Source: Microcaldota archaeon (lineage in GTDB: Archaea; Micrarchaeota; Micrarchaeia; Micrarchaeales; CABMGC01). From it: a stretch of DNA of 63,088 nt. Each line of letters begins with the position of its first letter. Position 1 is the first letter of the stretch. Below are positions 53,295-60,194 of the stretch, one piece after another. Location of the stretch: NCBI GenBank assembly GCA_027334165.1, contig DAHWXM010000012.1:1-63088 (forward strand). Reading direction: 5' to 3'. The notes beneath the pieces were generated by a model. That model was not told where the DNA came from and did no database searches. It was given only the letters and a program-made list of their open reading frames with translations. The translations under genes and the position numbers were made by a program.

Positions 53295-53372
53295 AAGCAT
53301 TTACCCGAAAGATTAAAGCGCGATAACTTTAATAATTACCTCAAATAAGTTATGTCATTGGATACATCAGCT

Positions 53373-53447
53373 GCTCCTATCGTCTAGTCCGGCCAAGGAC
53401 GTGGGGCTTTCAACCCCGCAACTCGGGTTCAAATCCCGATGGGAGCA
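53373..53447 (+). tRNA. tRNA-Glu(TTC), attachment site of the integrated element
   Basis: Acceptor GCTCCTA (53373-53379) pairs with TGGGAGC (53440-53446), discriminator A at 53447. Anticodon arm TGGGG-CTTTCAA-CCCCG gives anticodon TTC. T-arm CTCGGG-TTCAAAT-CCCGA region is continuous. The 3' part from 53386 is repeated at 60109-60170, and the integrase reading frame begins inside this gene at 53439. Confidence 0.95.
53386..53447 (+). repeat. Left attachment repeat (62 bp, within tRNA-Glu)
   Basis: These 62 bases match 60109-60170 with two differences. They start in the D-arm (AGTCCGGCCAAGGACG) and end exactly with the tRNA discriminator base. The repeat spacing is 6723 bp, which would be the size of the excised circle. 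Confidence 0.93.
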
Positions 53448-54335
53448 ATCGAAATTTACGACGACAAGCTAGGGTTCAAATCTCTAGCCAATGACAAGAA
53501 ATTAAGCAACACACGGTTCGGTTCCATCACGGAGACCGAACCCGAAAAGTTAAAGAAGCACATCAAAGAGGTGCTTCCGAATCTAACCTTCCACGAGATT
53601 AAGGCTGTCTTGTCCTTAATCTACCAAATCAAGAAAAGACGTTACAGAAGCAATGCGCCTCCAAAGTACGGAAGCCTGAACAAAGGCTTCTCTGAACAGG
53701 AGGTGCAGGCGTTCTTCAAGGTAATAGAAAACGACAAGTTTCGCCTATTGTTTGGGTATCAAGCGCAGCTTGGACTCAGGATAGGCGAAGCTGTCAAGGT
53801 AAACGTGAAGGACATCAAGTTCGAGACACGTGAGCTAACCGTGAAAACAGAAAAGGCTCACGTTATAGACACCATGCTTATACCAGTACCATTATTCAAG
53901 CAGACCTTAGAGTTCATAAACCGGAACGAGAAGTCTATAATGCAAGCTGGCGGGTACGTGTTCTTCGCAGAAAAGGGGCATAGCCTTAGGGGCGAGCCCT
54001 ACCTAGAGAAGAACTACGTCCGCAAGGTGTTCAGAGAGTACGTCCAAGCCGCCAAGCTGGACGAGGTCTACGATCAAAGCGAGGAGACCTACGGCAGAAC
54101 ACCCAGAAGGCTGCATAGGCTGACCACGCACAGCCTTAGGCACTATGCAATAACCAGCTTCGCTAGGCAGAATAATGGGAATGTGGTGCTTTCAAGCAGG
54201 TTCGCAAGGCACAGCGATCCAAGCACCACCATGACCTACATAAACACAAGGAAAGACGAGCTTTATAGGGCAGTGGATGAGACCTTCTCGCTAGAGAGGG
54301 CATCCAGCCTCAAAGCCAAGCTTTCCATGCCATAA
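53439..54335 (+). CDS. int: Tyrosine recombinase, C-terminal part Int(C) of an SSV-type split integrase
   Basis: 298 codons from an ATG inside the tRNA 3' end. Catalytic residues: Arg in LGLRIGEAV (about 114), HSLRH (His 231, Arg 234), His 258 in RFARHSDPS, Tyr 267 in MTYIN. In the integrated state, upstream in frame there is TAG at 53385 in the tRNA, so only this part can be made here. The true N-terminus (28 codons) is at 60087-60170; joining the att copies restores one frame of 323 codons. Excision with element circularisation would rebuild the gene with its promoter. Base composition is host-like, unlike the AT-rich genes to the right. Confidence 0.92.
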   Translation: MGAIEIYDDKLGFKSLANDKKLSNTRFGSITETEPEKLKKHIKEVLPNLTFHEIKAVLSLIYQIKKRRYRSNAPPKYGSLNKGFSEQEVQAFFKVIENDKFRLLFGYQAQLGLRIGEAVKVNVKDIKFETRELTVKTEKAHVIDTMLIPVPLFKQTLEFINRNEKSIMQAGGYVFFAEKGHSLRGEPYLEKNYVRKVFREYVQAAKLDEVYDQSEETYGRTPRRLHRLTTHSLRHYAITSFARQNNGNVVLSSRFARHSDPSTTMTYINTRKDELYRAVDETFSLERASSLKAKLSMP

Positions 54336-54343
54336 ATCTAGCA

Positions 54344-54493
54344 TTTCTCTACATGACTTAGGTTTCTCTACATGCCTAAGTCAATCCATGTAGAGAAAAT
54401 CTCCCTCGTAAGCCCTCAAAATAGTGCTGTTTTCTCTCTACACTACTGCACATCAATATTAGAGCCGTCCATGTAGAGTTTCATGTAGAGAAA
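54344..54493. repeat. Array of TTTCTCTACATG repeats in both orientations
   Basis: Exact TTTCTCTACATG at 54344-54355 and 54363-54374; exact complement CATGTAGAGAAA at 54387-54398 and 54482-54493; imperfect copies at about 54431-54443 and 54470-54481. GACTTAGG (54355-54362) and CCTAAGTC (54375-54382) form an inverted repeat around the second copy. It follows the int stop by a few bases. Candidates are integrase arm-type sites, replication iterons, or an operator. Confidence 0.8.
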
Positions 54494-54499
54494 CTCACG

Positions 54500-54740
54500 C
54501 CTACGCAGCCTACGCCCGCCCCTAAGACACCTTCGGTGTCGCTCAGGCGGGCTACGGCTGCTACGGCGGCTGCTTGCAGGACATGGCGGCTCAGGAACTA
54601 CGTCTCTTGTCCAACAAGAGACGCCGATTTTGGGCGGGGGCAAAATCGGCCTTCGGTAGTTCCGTTGCTGGTGGCAGTTTGCAGTCCGTTGGGACGCTAG
54701 CCCACGTGAATCCGAAGGATGAACGTGCTGGCGTAGCTTA
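54500..54740 (+). ncRNA. Strongly folded GC-rich region, candidate non-coding RNA
   Basis: About 240 bases without a credible gene. Stems: CAGCC/GGCTG (54506-54510, 54556-54560) and GCCCGCC/GGCGGGC (54514-54520, 54546-54552) enclosing GACACC/GGTGTC (54526-54531, 54535-54540); GGAACTAC/GTAGTTCC (54594-54601, 54656-54663) enclosing two abutting hairpins, 9 bp (54602-54610 with 54614-54622) and 10 bp (54623-54632 with 54641-54650); GTCC/GGAC (54684-54687, 54692-54695); and a final arm of GCTA-GCC/GGC-TAGC, CACGT/ACGTG and ATCC/GGAT. The last arm has a symmetric GA/GA internal loop, a stable tandem sheared pair only in the plus-strand RNA, so I assign the plus strand. No known RNA class recognised. 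Confidence 0.6.
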
Positions 54741-54796
54741 AGGATTATAGGTCTCCTTACCATAAAACTGATAATTCTTCGCTGCGATATACTACT

Positions 54797-55195
54797 ATGG
54801 CTAGGCGCAAATCCGGAAGCGGGAACGAGATTATAGACCTAATCGGGGCTATAATCGTCTTGCTAGTCATGCTTTGGGTATTCTGGATACTCTTCCATAC
54901 CCAGATAATAGCCTTCTTCACCAACCTGTTGATCGGACTCGTCGAGCTTATCGTACTCGCCCTCATAGTCTTGGCAGGTGGCTATGTGGCATGGGAGCTG
55001 GAAGAAAACAACAACATAACCGCCGGATGGGGGATAGTTGTCGGAATCGCAATATTCATAATACTCTCGGCGCTACGGCTTGGCACGATAGGTGCAGTCA
55101 TAGTGCTTCTGGACATAGGAGCTTTGCTTGCCTTCGCATGGAAGTTTATTGACCAAAACCAGTACGGTATTGACGGTGGATTTTTAGGCCGATAG
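54797..55195 (+). CDS. Small four-helix membrane protein of the element
   Basis: 132 residues. After a basic start (MARRKSGSGNE) there are four hydrophobic helices (IIDLIGAIIVLLVMLWVFWI, IIAFFTNLLIGLVELIVLAL, ITAGWGIVVGIAIFIILSAL, GTIGAVIVLLDIGALLAFAW). No family recognised. It is host-like in composition and lies between the folded RNA region and the defence operon. A membrane partner or effector of the adjoining system is possible but only suggested by position. ATG at 54797 has no strong ribosome site. Confidence 0.7.
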   Translation: MARRKSGSGNEIIDLIGAIIVLLVMLWVFWILFHTQIIAFFTNLLIGLVELIVLALIVLAGGYVAWELEENNNITAGWGIVVGIAIFIILSALRLGTIGAVIVLLDIGALLAFAWKFIDQNQYGIDGGFLGR

Positions 55196-55261: not shown

Positions 55262-56869
55262 ATGAAGATAAAACGCGTTAATATCACTAATTATAGAAGT
55301 TTGAAAGATATATCAATAGGCGATTTCAACTCCATAAACATTTTAGCAGGAAGGAATGGTTCTGGTAAATCTAATTTACTTGAAGCGTTAGACACCTTTT
55401 TTAGAGAATTTGATCCACCATTGGAAAAACCAGCAGCAGTGCCAGACCATTTATGGTTTAATGAGAATACTAACTTAGAGATAGGGATTGGACTTACGCT
55501 TGCGCTAAATAAAGATGAATTTACTTCTACAAGCACAGAAAACCTTCGTAAGATTATTCCAGATTCGACAGAATATGATGTCTCTATAAAAAGAACTATA
55601 TCAAATCAAGGAAAAAGAGTGTGGAGAACAAATGACCTGTCAGTAAACGAAATGAAAATAATTGATGATAATAAAGTTGCGGCAGACTTCGATACAAAAA
55701 TAAAAGCCATAGATGCAAACCTGAAGCCCGATAATGAAATTTCACAATTCTTAGGTTCTTTAACTACAAGGACAAAAAATAATTTTAGGTTAATAGCACC
55801 TACGAGGGATCAATCAAACCAGTCTGTTACGGCCATAGGTGAACGGAACGCCTTTTTAGATACTGAAACACAGAATTCCATAAGAAATCTTAGCCAGAGC
55901 ACTGCATCAGGTGAAAAAAGAACATGGCGAGAGATAAAAACTAGCTTGCAACAGGTCTTGGATGGTAAAGACCTGGAGGTTTCAAGTAACCAGATATTTC
56001 TAGCTGAGGGCAGCGCAAAATTACCTATTTATCTACATGGCGGTGGGCAACAAGAAGTAGTTGCAATAGTAAGGTATATTGAAGAGCTATCAAGCAAAGG
56101 TGTAACTATATTCGCCATAGAAGAACCAGAAATGCATCTTCATCCACATGCACAAAGACAGTTAATCGAATACTTAAAAAAGAAAGCTAATAACTTTCAA
56201 TTCTTCATTTCTACACACTCGACTACATTCATAAATAAACAAGGAGGGACATATTTAGTTCAAAAGGAAGATACTGAGTCAAGAATATCACAAATTAAAG
56301 ATAAAGACGATCTCAAGAAAGTCATAGTTGAACTAGGTGCGAGACCAAGTGATCTGCTTCTGGCAGATAAAGTTGTCTTCGTTGAAGGAGCTTCGGATAA
56401 GATATTCGTTAGTCGCTGCGCTGAGTTACTGAGTTTGGACTTTGACGAACGTATATCAATAATACCAATGCAGGGCGTAAATAAAGCAAGACATAACTTA
56501 GATTTCTGGATCGAGCTATCTAAGGGTGCGGATATACCTGTTTATGTCATAGCTGACTCTGGAAAACAAACTGATGCTGAGATTAAGGCATTGCTGGACA
56601 AGGGTACCATATCTAAAAACAGCTTCTATAAGCTTGAAAAAGAAGCCATAGAGGAATATTATCCAGCAGAACTAATCAATGAATTTTTGGTATCAATAGG
56701 TGAAACTACAAAAATTAAAGATAGTTTTACTGTAAATGACATAAAATCTAAAGGTGATAAACTACCGAAAATGTGGAAAGTACTACTGGCAGATTATGTT
56801 ACAGAAAGAATCAAAGCAGAACAGGTTCCAGATGAGATAAAGAATATACTATCTGAAATAGTGAAATAA
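55262..56869 (+). CDS. OLD-family ATP-dependent nuclease (AAA ATPase plus TOPRIM)
   Basis: 535 residues. ABC-like ATPase domain: N-terminal MKIKRVNITNYRSLKDISIG, Walker A GRNGSGKSN (about 30-38), Walker B FAIEEPEMHLHP (about 285-296) and FFISTHSTTFINK. The TOPRIM domain follows with VVFVEGASDKIF (about 374-385) and VYVIADSGKQTD. This is the OLD/GajA architecture found in phage-defence nucleases such as P2 Old and Gabija GajA. Here the partner is not a UvrD-like helicase but the restriction-modification enzyme starting one base later. Codon use is strongly AT-rich relative to host genes, a sign of transfer. Confidence 0.9.
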   Translation: MKIKRVNITNYRSLKDISIGDFNSINILAGRNGSGKSNLLEALDTFFREFDPPLEKPAAVPDHLWFNENTNLEIGIGLTLALNKDEFTSTSTENLRKIIPDSTEYDVSIKRTISNQGKRVWRTNDLSVNEMKIIDDNKVAADFDTKIKAIDANLKPDNEISQFLGSLTTRTKNNFRLIAPTRDQSNQSVTAIGERNAFLDTETQNSIRNLSQSTASGEKRTWREIKTSLQQVLDGKDLEVSSNQIFLAEGSAKLPIYLHGGGQQEVVAIVRYIEELSSKGVTIFAIEEPEMHLHPHAQRQLIEYLKKKANNFQFFISTHSTTFINKQGGTYLVQKEDTESRISQIKDKDDLKKVIVELGARPSDLLLADKVVFVEGASDKIFVSRCAELLSLDFDERISIIPMQGVNKARHNLDFWIELSKGADIPVYVIADSGKQTDAEIKALLDKGTISKNSFYKLEKEAIEEYYPAELINEFLVSIGETTKIKDSFTVNDIKSKGDKLPKMWKVLLADYVTERIKAEQVPDEIKNILSEIVK

Positions 56870-59800
56870 TTGGTAATCAATGTGGCTACTAAATCGAATG
56901 TTAGTTTCGTAGACAAAGTCTTACTCGCTTTTAAGAAGATAAATAGCGAAATAACAATAGACTCGCTTGAACATGACTTTAGCCCTAGACTGGCCAAATA
57001 TCTAATAGAGGGAGTTTTGGGATACAGTGGTTCAGATTATACATTTGAGCGGGGCAGAACTGACATAACTTTATTTGATGAGAATAAGAACAGAGTCGTG
57101 GTAATAGAAACAAAGAGGCCAAAGGAGAATTTGGACGCAGAGGAATGGCGCAAACAAGCTGGAAAGTACGCAGATTCAACAACACATTTTATTGGACTCA
57201 CTAATGGTTATAGATTTATCTTGTGGGAAATCAAAGCCGATGAGAAAACTTTAAAATCTGACATAGATTTTAGCGGTCTAATTAATTCAAAGAAAATTAC
57301 AGAGACCAAGCTCTCTACAACAGAGGTCGAACAAATTCTTTTCTTGAACAACATAACAAAAGAGCAAATATGGAGCGAGTCAAAATACGCTATTTTTGAT
57401 CCGTATTACGCTAAAATAGACGTAGCGGAAGATGACGGATTCGGTAAGCTTATTGCACAACTCAATTACATTTCGGATGATATATTACGCCAATATACTT
57501 ATTCTGCGTTTGATGATTATTATGCTAATTATGCCGAATATAAACAATCAAAAAATGAGATAGAAGAGATTAAAAAACACAATGGGGATGATAGAAAGCA
57601 AGCTTCCAAAGTAGCCACATATGAAATGAAGATAGAGGGCAAATATAAAAAGTACTCAACATTCTTAGGTTATTATATATGGAAGGCACTTTCAAACAGG
57701 CCAGACGATAAAGAAGAAGAAAATAAACAAGTTTTCTGTAAGGAATCAATCTACGTACTTATTAACAGACTTCTTTTCATAAGGATATGTGAAGATAAAG
57801 GACTTATTGGTAAGAGAATAATATCAAATGGTGGAGTAGAAAAACTGCGTGATTTACTACATGATGAAGCATTTCCAGATCCAGACCTTGGAGTTTTCAA
57901 GCAAATAGTTTTCAATTTTTCATATGATAGGGGAAATCATCTATACAATCATTTCTATGAAAAGAATAATCCATTAGATTGGTATGAGAGCGGAGACGGA
58001 GAACTTGATAGAGTTCTGAATCGCATTTTGTGGATTCTTAATCAATTTAACTTTTCCAAAGTCGATAGGGACATATTAGGCAAAATTTATGAAAAATATC
58101 TTCCAAAAGAGGAAAGAAAAAGGCTTGGAGAATTTTATACGCCTGATGAAATTATTGACTACATATTAGACGCTGTTGAATACTTACCAAATAAAGCAAT
58201 TGAAAATAAAGATCTGATAGATCCTGCATGCGGATCTGGTGGATTTCTTGTAAGGTCATCAAGGAGACTCATAGCTAGATATGCCGTAAAATTTGATAAG
58301 GCCACACCAAAAGAAGCACTTGATAATAAAAAGTGGAAAGATGTTCTAGAACGACTTACACCGAAAGAATGCGAAGAGATAGTAAATGCTGTTGCGCTTC
58401 ATATACATGGATTTGATATAAATCCGTTTGCAGTTAATATTACTGAAATGAACCTACTTTTTCAGGTAGTAGATCTTTATTTCAAAGCAAATAAGGCAAA
58501 TAGAACCTTTATTGTGCCTAGATTTCAAATATATGGCACAGATTCACTTGAAGTTCCGAATGAACAAGCTAAGATGACACAATTCTATGATGGTTCTGGA
58601 AAGAATATGGCTAAAGATTTAGTTACTATAGAAGAGCTGAAAAAGAAGAAATATGATTTTGTGGTAGGAAACCCACCATATGTCAAAGTCCAAAATCTTG
58701 TGTCAATACAAAAGGATTTGCTAGAAAAATCATTCAAAACTGCAAAAGGCTTGTACGATTTATACACACTGTTTGTTGAGCTAGGCATAAATATGCTTGG
58801 CGATACGGGAAAGTTCGGATATATAATATCTGATAAATTCATACAGCGAGGATATGGAGAACCGTTAAAGGAGATCATAGCAAAAGAAACTTCTATAAAA
58901 GAAATCATTGATTTTGGTGACACTCCTGTTTTTGAAGATGTTACAAATTATCCATTAATCTTGGTACTTTCTAAGCCCAACGATAACACTACAGAAGCAA
59001 AAATAATCAAAATTAAGCAGGCTAAATCAGATATGCTTAAAGAAATATCAAATATAGGTAAGATAACAGAAAACCGATACATAACAGCAAAATTTATCAA
59101 ACACGAAGAATTTGTAAAGGACTGGTCTTTTTCTAATGAAAGACTAAGGAAGATACTGAACGGTCTAGATGGACTGAAAAAGCTTAGTGAATTATGTGAA
59201 TCTATTCAGGTAGGAATTCAAACTGGGAACGATGAATTACTGATATTCAATCAAGAATTTGTTAAAAATGAAATAGACTCCAAATTCCTAAAACCTTATG
59301 TAAAAGGCAGAGATGTTAAAAGGTATTCGACCCCAGAACCTAAAAATTTGGTTTTGTATCCATATATTTTAGATGGAGAAAAGCAAAGACTTATTACGGA
59401 ATCAGAATTAAAACTAAATCCCAAAGTATACAACTATCTAATCGCCCATAAACCAGAACTTCAGAATAGATGGGGCGTAAAGACGTTCTATGATTTGCCT
59501 ACTACTAGGTCTATTGAATGGTTTGAAAAAAGAAAGATACTGACGCCGGATGTATCTGCTCAGCCAAACTTTACTATAATAGATGGTGGAAAATATTTCT
59601 CAAAAGGAAGTTGCTATGGTATAGTCCTAAAACAGAATAAACTTTACGAATTTGTTTTAGGGATACTAAATTCAAAACTTACCTTTGCTATAATTAAAGA
59701 AACTAGTGCACTTTTTTCAGGAGGATACTACCGTTTTACAACGGATTTTATGGAGCCACTACCAATTAAACTACCAATTAACAAAAAAGAGGAAACCATA

Positions 59801-59965
59801 GCAGAAAAAATAACAACATTAGTTAAAGAGATTCTAAAAATGAAAAAGAAAGACGCAAATGCTGATACTAAAAAGCTTGAAGATGATATAGATGGCTTGG
59901 TTTTTGACTTGTATGGCCTGAGCACTGAAGAACGAAAGCTCATAGAGCAAGCTGTAGCTACCTAA
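56870..59965 (+). CDS. Type IIG restriction-modification enzyme (Eco57I-like)
   Basis: Up to 1031 residues. An N-terminal PD-(D/E)xK nuclease is suggested by RTDITLFDENKNRVVVIETKRP (Asp, then E-x-K at about 79-81). The helical middle part is followed by N6-adenine methylase motifs: DPACGSGGFLV (about 450-460), FDINPFAVNITEMNLL, and NPPYVKVQ (about 600). A C-terminal target-recognition region includes KPYVKGRDVKRYSTPEPKN. Cutting, methylation and recognition are thus in one chain. Start TTG 56870, directly after the OLD stop, or GTG 56882 with GGTAAT upstream. AT-rich like its partner. Alternative: a BREX-like methylase, less likely given the nuclease motif. Confidence 0.88.
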   Translation: MVINVATKSNVSFVDKVLLAFKKINSEITIDSLEHDFSPRLAKYLIEGVLGYSGSDYTFERGRTDITLFDENKNRVVVIETKRPKENLDAEEWRKQAGKYADSTTHFIGLTNGYRFILWEIKADEKTLKSDIDFSGLINSKKITETKLSTTEVEQILFLNNITKEQIWSESKYAIFDPYYAKIDVAEDDGFGKLIAQLNYISDDILRQYTYSAFDDYYANYAEYKQSKNEIEEIKKHNGDDRKQASKVATYEMKIEGKYKKYSTFLGYYIWKALSNRPDDKEEENKQVFCKESIYVLINRLLFIRICEDKGLIGKRIISNGGVEKLRDLLHDEAFPDPDLGVFKQIVFNFSYDRGNHLYNHFYEKNNPLDWYESGDGELDRVLNRILWILNQFNFSKVDRDILGKIYEKYLPKEERKRLGEFYTPDEIIDYILDAVEYLPNKAIENKDLIDPACGSGGFLVRSSRRLIARYAVKFDKATPKEALDNKKWKDVLERLTPKECEEIVNAVALHIHGFDINPFAVNITEMNLLFQVVDLYFKANKANRTFIVPRFQIYGTDSLEVPNEQAKMTQFYDGSGKNMAKDLVTIEELKKKKYDFVVGNPPYVKVQNLVSIQKDLLEKSFKTAKGLYDLYTLFVELGINMLGDTGKFGYIISDKFIQRGYGEPLKEIIAKETSIKEIIDFGDTPVFEDVTNYPLILVLSKPNDNTTEAKIIKIKQAKSDMLKEISNIGKITENRYITAKFIKHEEFVKDWSFSNERLRKILNGLDGLKKLSELCESIQVGIQTGNDELLIFNQEFVKNEIDSKFLKPYVKGRDVKRYSTPEPKNLVLYPYILDGEKQRLITESELKLNPKVYNYLIAHKPELQNRWGVKTFYDLPTTRSIEWFEKRKILTPDVSAQPNFTIIDGGKYFSKGSCYGIVLKQNKLYEFVLGILNSKLTFAIIKETSALFSGGYYRFTTDFMEPLPIKLPINKKEETIAEKITTLVKEILKMKKKDANADTKKLEDDIDGLVFDLYGLSTEERKLIEQAVAT

Positions 59966-60086: not shown

Positions 60087-60194
60087 ATGGAGCTAGAAAA
60101 CGACGCTAAGTCCGGCCAAGGACGCGGGGCTTTCAACCCTGCAACTCGGGTTCAAATCCCGATGGGAGCACTCTATCTCTGGGGTTATATATAA
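60087..60194 (+). pseudogene. int: Integrase N-terminal fragment Int(N), split by integration
   Basis: From ATG 60087 the frame reads MELENDAKSGQGRGAFN and continues through the att copy to ATG-GGA-GCA (60162-60170), the same codons that open Int(C) at 53439. Past the junction it runs on for only eight codons to TAA at 60192. Joining 60170 to 53448 gives one continuous integrase. Both base differences between the att copies fall at third positions here (CGT to CGC, CCC to CCT), so the copy has evolved as coding sequence. Not a gene in its own right. Confidence 0.88.
60109..60170 (+). repeat. Right attachment repeat (62 bp copy of tRNA-Glu 3' part)
   Basis: Matches 53386-53447 with two substitutions. 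It lacks the 5' acceptor strand and part of the D-arm, so it is not a tRNA gene. Marks the right end of the element. Confidence 0.93.

Follow-up and report, generated by a model that had tools for sequence, protein, structure and literature searches.

A strongly folded stretch at positions 54500-54740 of a 63,088-nucleotide contig of a Micrarchaeota archaeon (the window, meaning this DNA at its full length) lies between an integrase gene and genes of defence type. This raises the question whether it encodes an RNA and, if so, whether such an RNA serves the defence genes or the DNA that carries both. A first-pass annotation had proposed a probably new, plus-strand non-coding RNA belonging to an element and possibly acting in its replication or in toxin/defence control, and had suggested energy folding against shuffled sequence and covariation in homologues as checks.

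A Highly Structured Region without a Conserved Reading Frame

The plus strand of 54500-54740 (241 nt) folds with -121.4 kcal/mol, compared with -93.8 ± 4.5 kcal/mol for 200 dinucleotide-shuffled sequences, none of which equalled the native value (z = -6.09), and the minus strand gave a z of -5.96. The stems of 8, 9 and 10 bp described in the first-pass annotation were all found in their places: GGAACTAC (54594-54601) pairs with GTAGTTCC (54656-54663) to close around a 9-bp hairpin (54602-54610/54614-54622) and a 10-bp hairpin (54623-54632/54641-54650). Upstream of these, 6, 7 and 6 bp form a stacked hairpin (54505-54561), and the last hairpin, P6, contains a GA/GA internal loop (54708-54709/54721-54722). 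The conserved unit is slightly larger than the segment initially delimited, with a covariance-model match at 54505-54737 and flanking hairpins at 54475-54495 and 54739-54759. The features of the locus are collected in Table 1.

No conserved coding frame was found in the region. A 106-aa ORF on the minus strand and a 52-aa ORF on the plus strand (from about 54584) are not retained in the homologues, in line with the initial impression that no credible protein is encoded, and the lengths of the model-matched homologues spread over all three residues modulo 3. A search of Rfam 15 over 54330-54800 yielded no match above the gathering threshold, which agrees with the suspected novelty of the putative RNA; the best E-value (2.7) was that of an unrelated family, whose match lies on the opposite strand and outside the RNA core.

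Table 1. Coordinates of the integrated element, the repeat array and the structured RNA in the window.
Feature	Position	Strand	Basis or remark
tRNA-Glu(TTC) gene, integration target	53372..53448	+	ARAGORN, Rfam
attL, 3' part of tRNA-Glu	53386-53450	+	direct repeat
Tyrosine recombinase (integrase), gene body	53439..54335	+	Pfam PF00589, E 6.8e-13
Repeat array, six CTCTACA/TGTAGAG copies (54347, 54366, 54389, 54436, 54472, 54484) around AT-rich box TGCACATCAATATTAGAG	54346..54494	+	
P0 hairpin GAGTTTC/GAAACTC, between the last two array repeats	54475..54495	+	covarying; 93.6% paired; two pairs with double changes
Structured RNA core	54505..54737	+	covariance model R1, 140.5 bits, 5.9e-41
P1 stacked hairpin GCAGCC / TAC-TAC internal loop / GCCCGCC / GACACC, UNCG-type loop	54505..54561	+	
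P2 mini-hairpin CTGC/GCAG	54570..54579	+	
P3, 8-bp closing stem enclosing 9-bp and 10-bp hairpins	54594..54663	+	
P4 hairpin CTG-GTGG-CAG; loop GUUG or GUGG in most homologues	54668..54677	+	
P5 GTCC-GTTG-GGAC; stem covaries, loop kept	54684..54695	+	
P6 long hairpin with tandem GA/GA internal loop	54696..54737	+	
P7 short hairpin TAAGGA/TCCTTA, end of conserved region	54739..54759	+	sequence comparison
132-aa membrane protein, first cargo gene	54797..55195	+	same cargo start beside the RNA in L118
Cargo: OLD-like AAA ATPase with TOPRIM domain (AriA/GajA/Old models)	55262..56869	+	
Cargo: type IIG restriction-modification enzyme	56870..59965	+	
Integrase start codon and first codons, right end of element	60087..60108	+	in frame with 53386 onward once the ends are joined
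attR, second copy of tRNA-Glu 3' end	60109..60173	+	direct repeat, 95% identical

Conservation, Covariation and Strand

A search of 60 relatives revealed similar DNA in 22 genomes. A covariance model built from nine short homologues (R1; 197 positions, 56 pairs) matched 63 of 164 genomes in the order of Micrarchaeota to which the window belongs, up to 12 times per genome, but not one of 137 genomes from elsewhere in the phylum; within the order the RNA is kept across two families. In a pattern scan, eleven matches were obtained among GTDB contigs, ten of them titled Micrarchaeota and one Marsarchaeota. The latter title is probably a misnomer, the same RNA being present in genome G083, a member of the window's own family.

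The covariation sought at the outset was found in an alignment of 41 homologues (A5), in which 95.9% of the cells are paired and 44 of the 56 pairs have changed on both sides, where shuffles gave 22.0 ± 2.5 and controls with slid partners no more than 17. A5 was fitted to the structure; compensatory changes are also present in two smaller, unfitted MAFFT alignments (A1 and A3). While the stems vary, the P1 loop reads UUCG, UUUG or UACG in 31 of the 41 homologues and the P5 loop GUUG in 33; overall, GUUG or GUGG is retained in the loops of both P4 and P5. Folding of the homologues gave a mean z of -4.4, with 39 of 41 below -2. Two architectures can be distinguished: a long one, to which the window belongs and in which P3 consists of two hairpins in a closing stem, and a short one with a single P3 hairpin. 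At two loci (L072, L028) a branched multi-hairpin structure stands in place of P1, and at two others (L068, L069) what looks like a repetition of the 3' domain follows directly on the RNA.

The loop of the 10-bp hairpin in P3 (54633-54640) is G-rich in the window and C-rich in most homologues (10 G-rich, 31 C-rich overall), and the clear cases, such as L020 versus L022, are inversions. The tip of P1 is likewise inverted in L035/L053. DNA hairpins are sites where such small inversions happen; they are tolerated here, with the run of C or G kept.

Wobble pairs and folding energies favour a plus-strand fold, the strand already preferred in the first-pass annotation. G.U cells outnumber A.C cells in all three alignments (94:45 in A5, 21:11 in A3, 17:9 in A1), an excess that becomes modest in A5 once the two basal P6 pairs are left out (59:43), and the plus strand is the more stable one in 35 of 41 homologues, where shuffled sequences give 65%. 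This strand bias alone does not discriminate RNA from single-stranded DNA.

The Putative RNA Belongs to a Family of tRNA-Integrated Elements

The supposition that the RNA is part of an element was borne out by an att-flanked integrated element of 6.7 kb around it, which runs from attL to attR in the order integrase, array, RNA, membrane protein, OLD-like ATPase and type IIG enzyme. It has the features of a cryptic integrated element, namely att repeats from a tRNA gene, an integrase and no genes for viral or conjugative functions, as judged from a listing of the ORFs and a Pfam scan of part of them. Related elements measure 1.4-9 kb and are integrated in tRNA-Leu, Ala, Gln, Pro and Glu genes, with att repeats of 26-79 bp where both ends are present; further copies of the RNA lie behind tRNA-Val and tRNA-Lys genes. 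For 53 of the 77 mapped RNA copies, a related integrase is encoded within 6 kb upstream on the same strand. Of the other 24, several lie at contig ends, five follow a tRNA gene on the same strand and a few stand alone; one of these solo copies, L118, is accompanied by the same first cargo gene as in the window. Since the structure is kept in some copies without an integrase (L118, L126, L062), an integrase-linked role is not obligatory. A 1.4-kb att-flanked element (L052:16730-18194, G052:C20) consists of the RNA and a nucleotidyltransferase gene pair, with no integrase. Short RNA-bearing contigs were considered as free circular copies and rejected, their ends not overlapping.

The cargo is unrelated from one element to another and elsewhere comprises a mercuric-reductase-like oxidoreductase, a heavy-metal ATPase, ParA and unknown proteins. 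The window's defence genes are therefore the cargo of one element. A link of the RNA to defence, as first proposed, finds no support, because homologous elements carry the same RNA beside other, unrelated cargo, the integrase being the constant partner. Toxin-antitoxin-type genes (AbiEii, nucleotidyltransferase, DUF2283) are often located between integrase and array. What the elements have in common is the RNA, the integrase, the layout of the array and the element ends. Their gene content, according to the ORF listing, includes no shared replication gene, and no Rep or relaxase gene was seen among the part of the ORFs scanned in the examined elements, though such a gene could come from a helper. 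To our knowledge, little is known about mobile elements of Micrarchaeota, and literature searches on integrative or mobile elements and non-coding RNA of this phylum returned no description of such elements.

Integration Interrupts the Integrase Gene

The attP site lies inside the integrase gene, whose start codon, together with about 25 codons, is found at the element's right end. Integration therefore detaches the rest of the gene from this start and probably also from the promoter. When the ends were joined, 11 of 16 elements showed an open frame across the att core, encoding 315-347 aa in ten of them and a shorter product in L048, where the integrase gene is interrupted. In the latter (L048:16676-18877), it is split by a 338-aa ORF whose N-terminus, MEQYYIGLDLGTKWTYATMI, is transposase-like by look. 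In the 200 nt before attR, the right ends of the elements contain a conserved hairpin, GGTTCAGAT...ATCTGAACC, and a TATA-like box, which probably represent the promoter region of the integrase on the circle.

The same principle is found in the suicidal archaeal integrases of SSV, pTN3 and pT26-2, in which attP also lies in the integrase gene and integration breaks it (PMC8371274). Those integrases are assigned to Pfam PF16795 (PMC8371274), whereas only PF00589 was detected here (E cut-off 0.001), and unlike them the integrase of the window loses only its start and the first ~25 codons. It is possibly another type of self-interrupting archaeal integrase, built on PF00589.

An Exchangeable Repeat Array Precedes the Putative RNA

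Directly upstream of the RNA lies an array of about 160 bp with repeats in both orientations, the length of which is nearly fixed in 27 elements. The layout is constant, while the repeat type differs (TGTAGAG, AAAGACC, GTTCCAA, AGATAAAG and others). Integrases that are 90-91% identical occur with different repeats and integrases of about 50% identity with the same repeats; sequence comparison thus indicates that elements exchange repeat types irrespective of the integrase they carry. The AT-rich box, with its peak 42-49 nt ahead of P1, is a weak promoter match. In the order, exact TGTAGAG-type arrays were found only before an RNA or, in one case, before an RNA remnant; the latter array (L174/G142), which had no model match, proved to belong to a decayed element. 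The possibility that the array provides arm sites for the integrase was rejected, as the repeat type is independent of the integrase and the distance to the att core is variable, often with toxin-antitoxin-type genes in between. Arrays of two types stand upstream of one RNA at eight loci (L050, L055, L122, L129, L133, L137, L138, L154), with given pairings of types seen in more than one element.

Relation to Known Systems

The observed structure is real, new to Rfam, widely kept in one order and the best-kept non-coding part of its element family; besides the integrase, nothing in the elements is kept as well. The covariance model thereby marks a widespread family of carriers of defence and metal-resistance cargo in ultra-small archaea. 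Like the GOLLD and ROOL RNAs of phages, which are structured, borne by mobile elements, often located near tRNA genes and of unknown function (PMC12286853; PMC7567579), it has no known protein partner, but GOLLD and ROOL measure 600-800 nt, whereas the RNA described here has about 200-300 nt, is archaeal and is tied to an integrase instead of tRNA islands. Neither of the two was among the Rfam 15 matches of the region, their models being assumed to be present in the library. If the RNA acts in trans, it would join GOLLD and ROOL as an element RNA whose role is open.

The elements resemble the cryptic elements of Thaumarchaeota, which are small, integrated in tRNA genes and share an integrase, many of them having no evident replication gene (PMC6563490); those elements have no discernible signature genes, whereas the Micrarchaeota family is marked by a structured RNA and a repeat array. 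The phage satellites PLE and P4 also encode RNAs, for which control through complementarity has been proposed (PMC7567579), a likeness by description to the putative RNA of the present elements. Compared with geminivirus DNA satellites (PMC12193555), our elements differ in that no helper was found, in their integration into tRNA genes and in their unrelated hosts.

Possible Functions of the Conserved Structure

We favour, at about an even chance, a structured non-coding RNA gene of about 235-300 nt on the plus strand, a hallmark of the tRNA-integrated elements that would serve the element's own cycle and not a cargo function. Because the RNA is common to elements that share little else than the integrase, it probably runs some step of their spread. 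The array and the AT-rich box would constitute a control region, either a promoter with operators or a replication origin, whose specificity would be swapped between elements. Transcribed from the array region, the RNA might act in replication, in transfer to a new cell or in immunity against a second copy. As no replication or transfer protein is common to the elements, they most likely rely on a host or helper factor that reads the array/RNA region. The occurrence of the P3 loop in both orientations is odd for a sequence-specific RNA loop, however, and both the weak promoter match of the AT-rich box, some 45 nt before P1, and the modest G.U excess outside the two basal P6 pairs count against an RNA gene. 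Moreover, most of the observed traces would also be expected if the functional molecule were plus-strand DNA in folded form.

A more speculative reading, to which we give perhaps one chance in a handful, regards the elements as minimal archaeal satellites that would transmit nothing as a core but a self-interrupting integrase and an RNA behind interchangeable specificity modules. Every module type would have its own helper, a virus or plasmid of Micrarchaeota that reads it, or would else mark a group of RNA-based immunity; two modules would make an element bispecific. If the repeat modules do correspond to helper specificities, they could be used to find the missing viruses and plasmids of these hosts.

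The main rival, less likely than the RNA gene, is a cis-acting DNA site, in which the array would be the origin or transfer start used by a helper replicon and the structure a fold of single-stranded DNA, such as a single-strand origin, a lagging-strand start or a packaging signal. The rigid spacing of the array over about 160 bp would suit such a site, as would the finding that the repeat copies within an element change together with no element protein tracking them. Some elements have tandem arrays of two types, which could use two helpers, and no replication gene is common to the family. The inversions of the P1 and P3 loops and the 3-nt GAA/GTA loops of P6 fit DNA hairpins, and the 1.4-kb element retains the structure without an integrase. 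On the other hand, the UNCG-type loops are a hallmark of RNA, the exact arrays all precede an RNA or its remnant, and no relaxase or Rep gene was seen among the scanned ORFs of the examined elements. Neither the RNA nor the array (searched in IMG/VR and in phage and plasmid collections) nor the integrase (viral, phage and plasmid collections) gave a match to a helper virus or plasmid, which is weak evidence because viruses of these hosts are poorly sampled.

Less probable still is RNA-based immunity or copy control comparable to that by the antisense RNAs of satellite phage P4, where repeats would pair between transcripts and the repeat type would determine which elements can coexist. The copies of a repeat are mutually complementary and present in both orientations, their types are exchangeable without a matching protein, and a single genome can contain up to 12 model matches with several repeat types. 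However, a single genome can contain one and the same repeat type twice (L139 and L140 in G052; L044 and L015 in G038), and in the first array hairpin pairing of the inner stem reaches only 51%.

That the RNA is a 5' leader of the first cargo gene, like a riboswitch or attenuator, is unlikely, and we assign it only a slight chance. The gene often begins within about 100 nt of the RNA end on the same strand, but the cargo genes of different elements are unrelated, often have a TATA-like box to themselves 3' of the RNA (L015, L048, L050, L053) and are directed towards the RNA in L126/L060, as are the next genes in L051. Least credible is a neutral inverted-repeat sequence or functionless dispersed repeat, which would account for the loop inversions as hairpins rearranging as DNA but is already contradicted by covariation well beyond the controls (44 of 56 pairs compensated), by the kept loops and by a fixed place and orientation across two families of the order.
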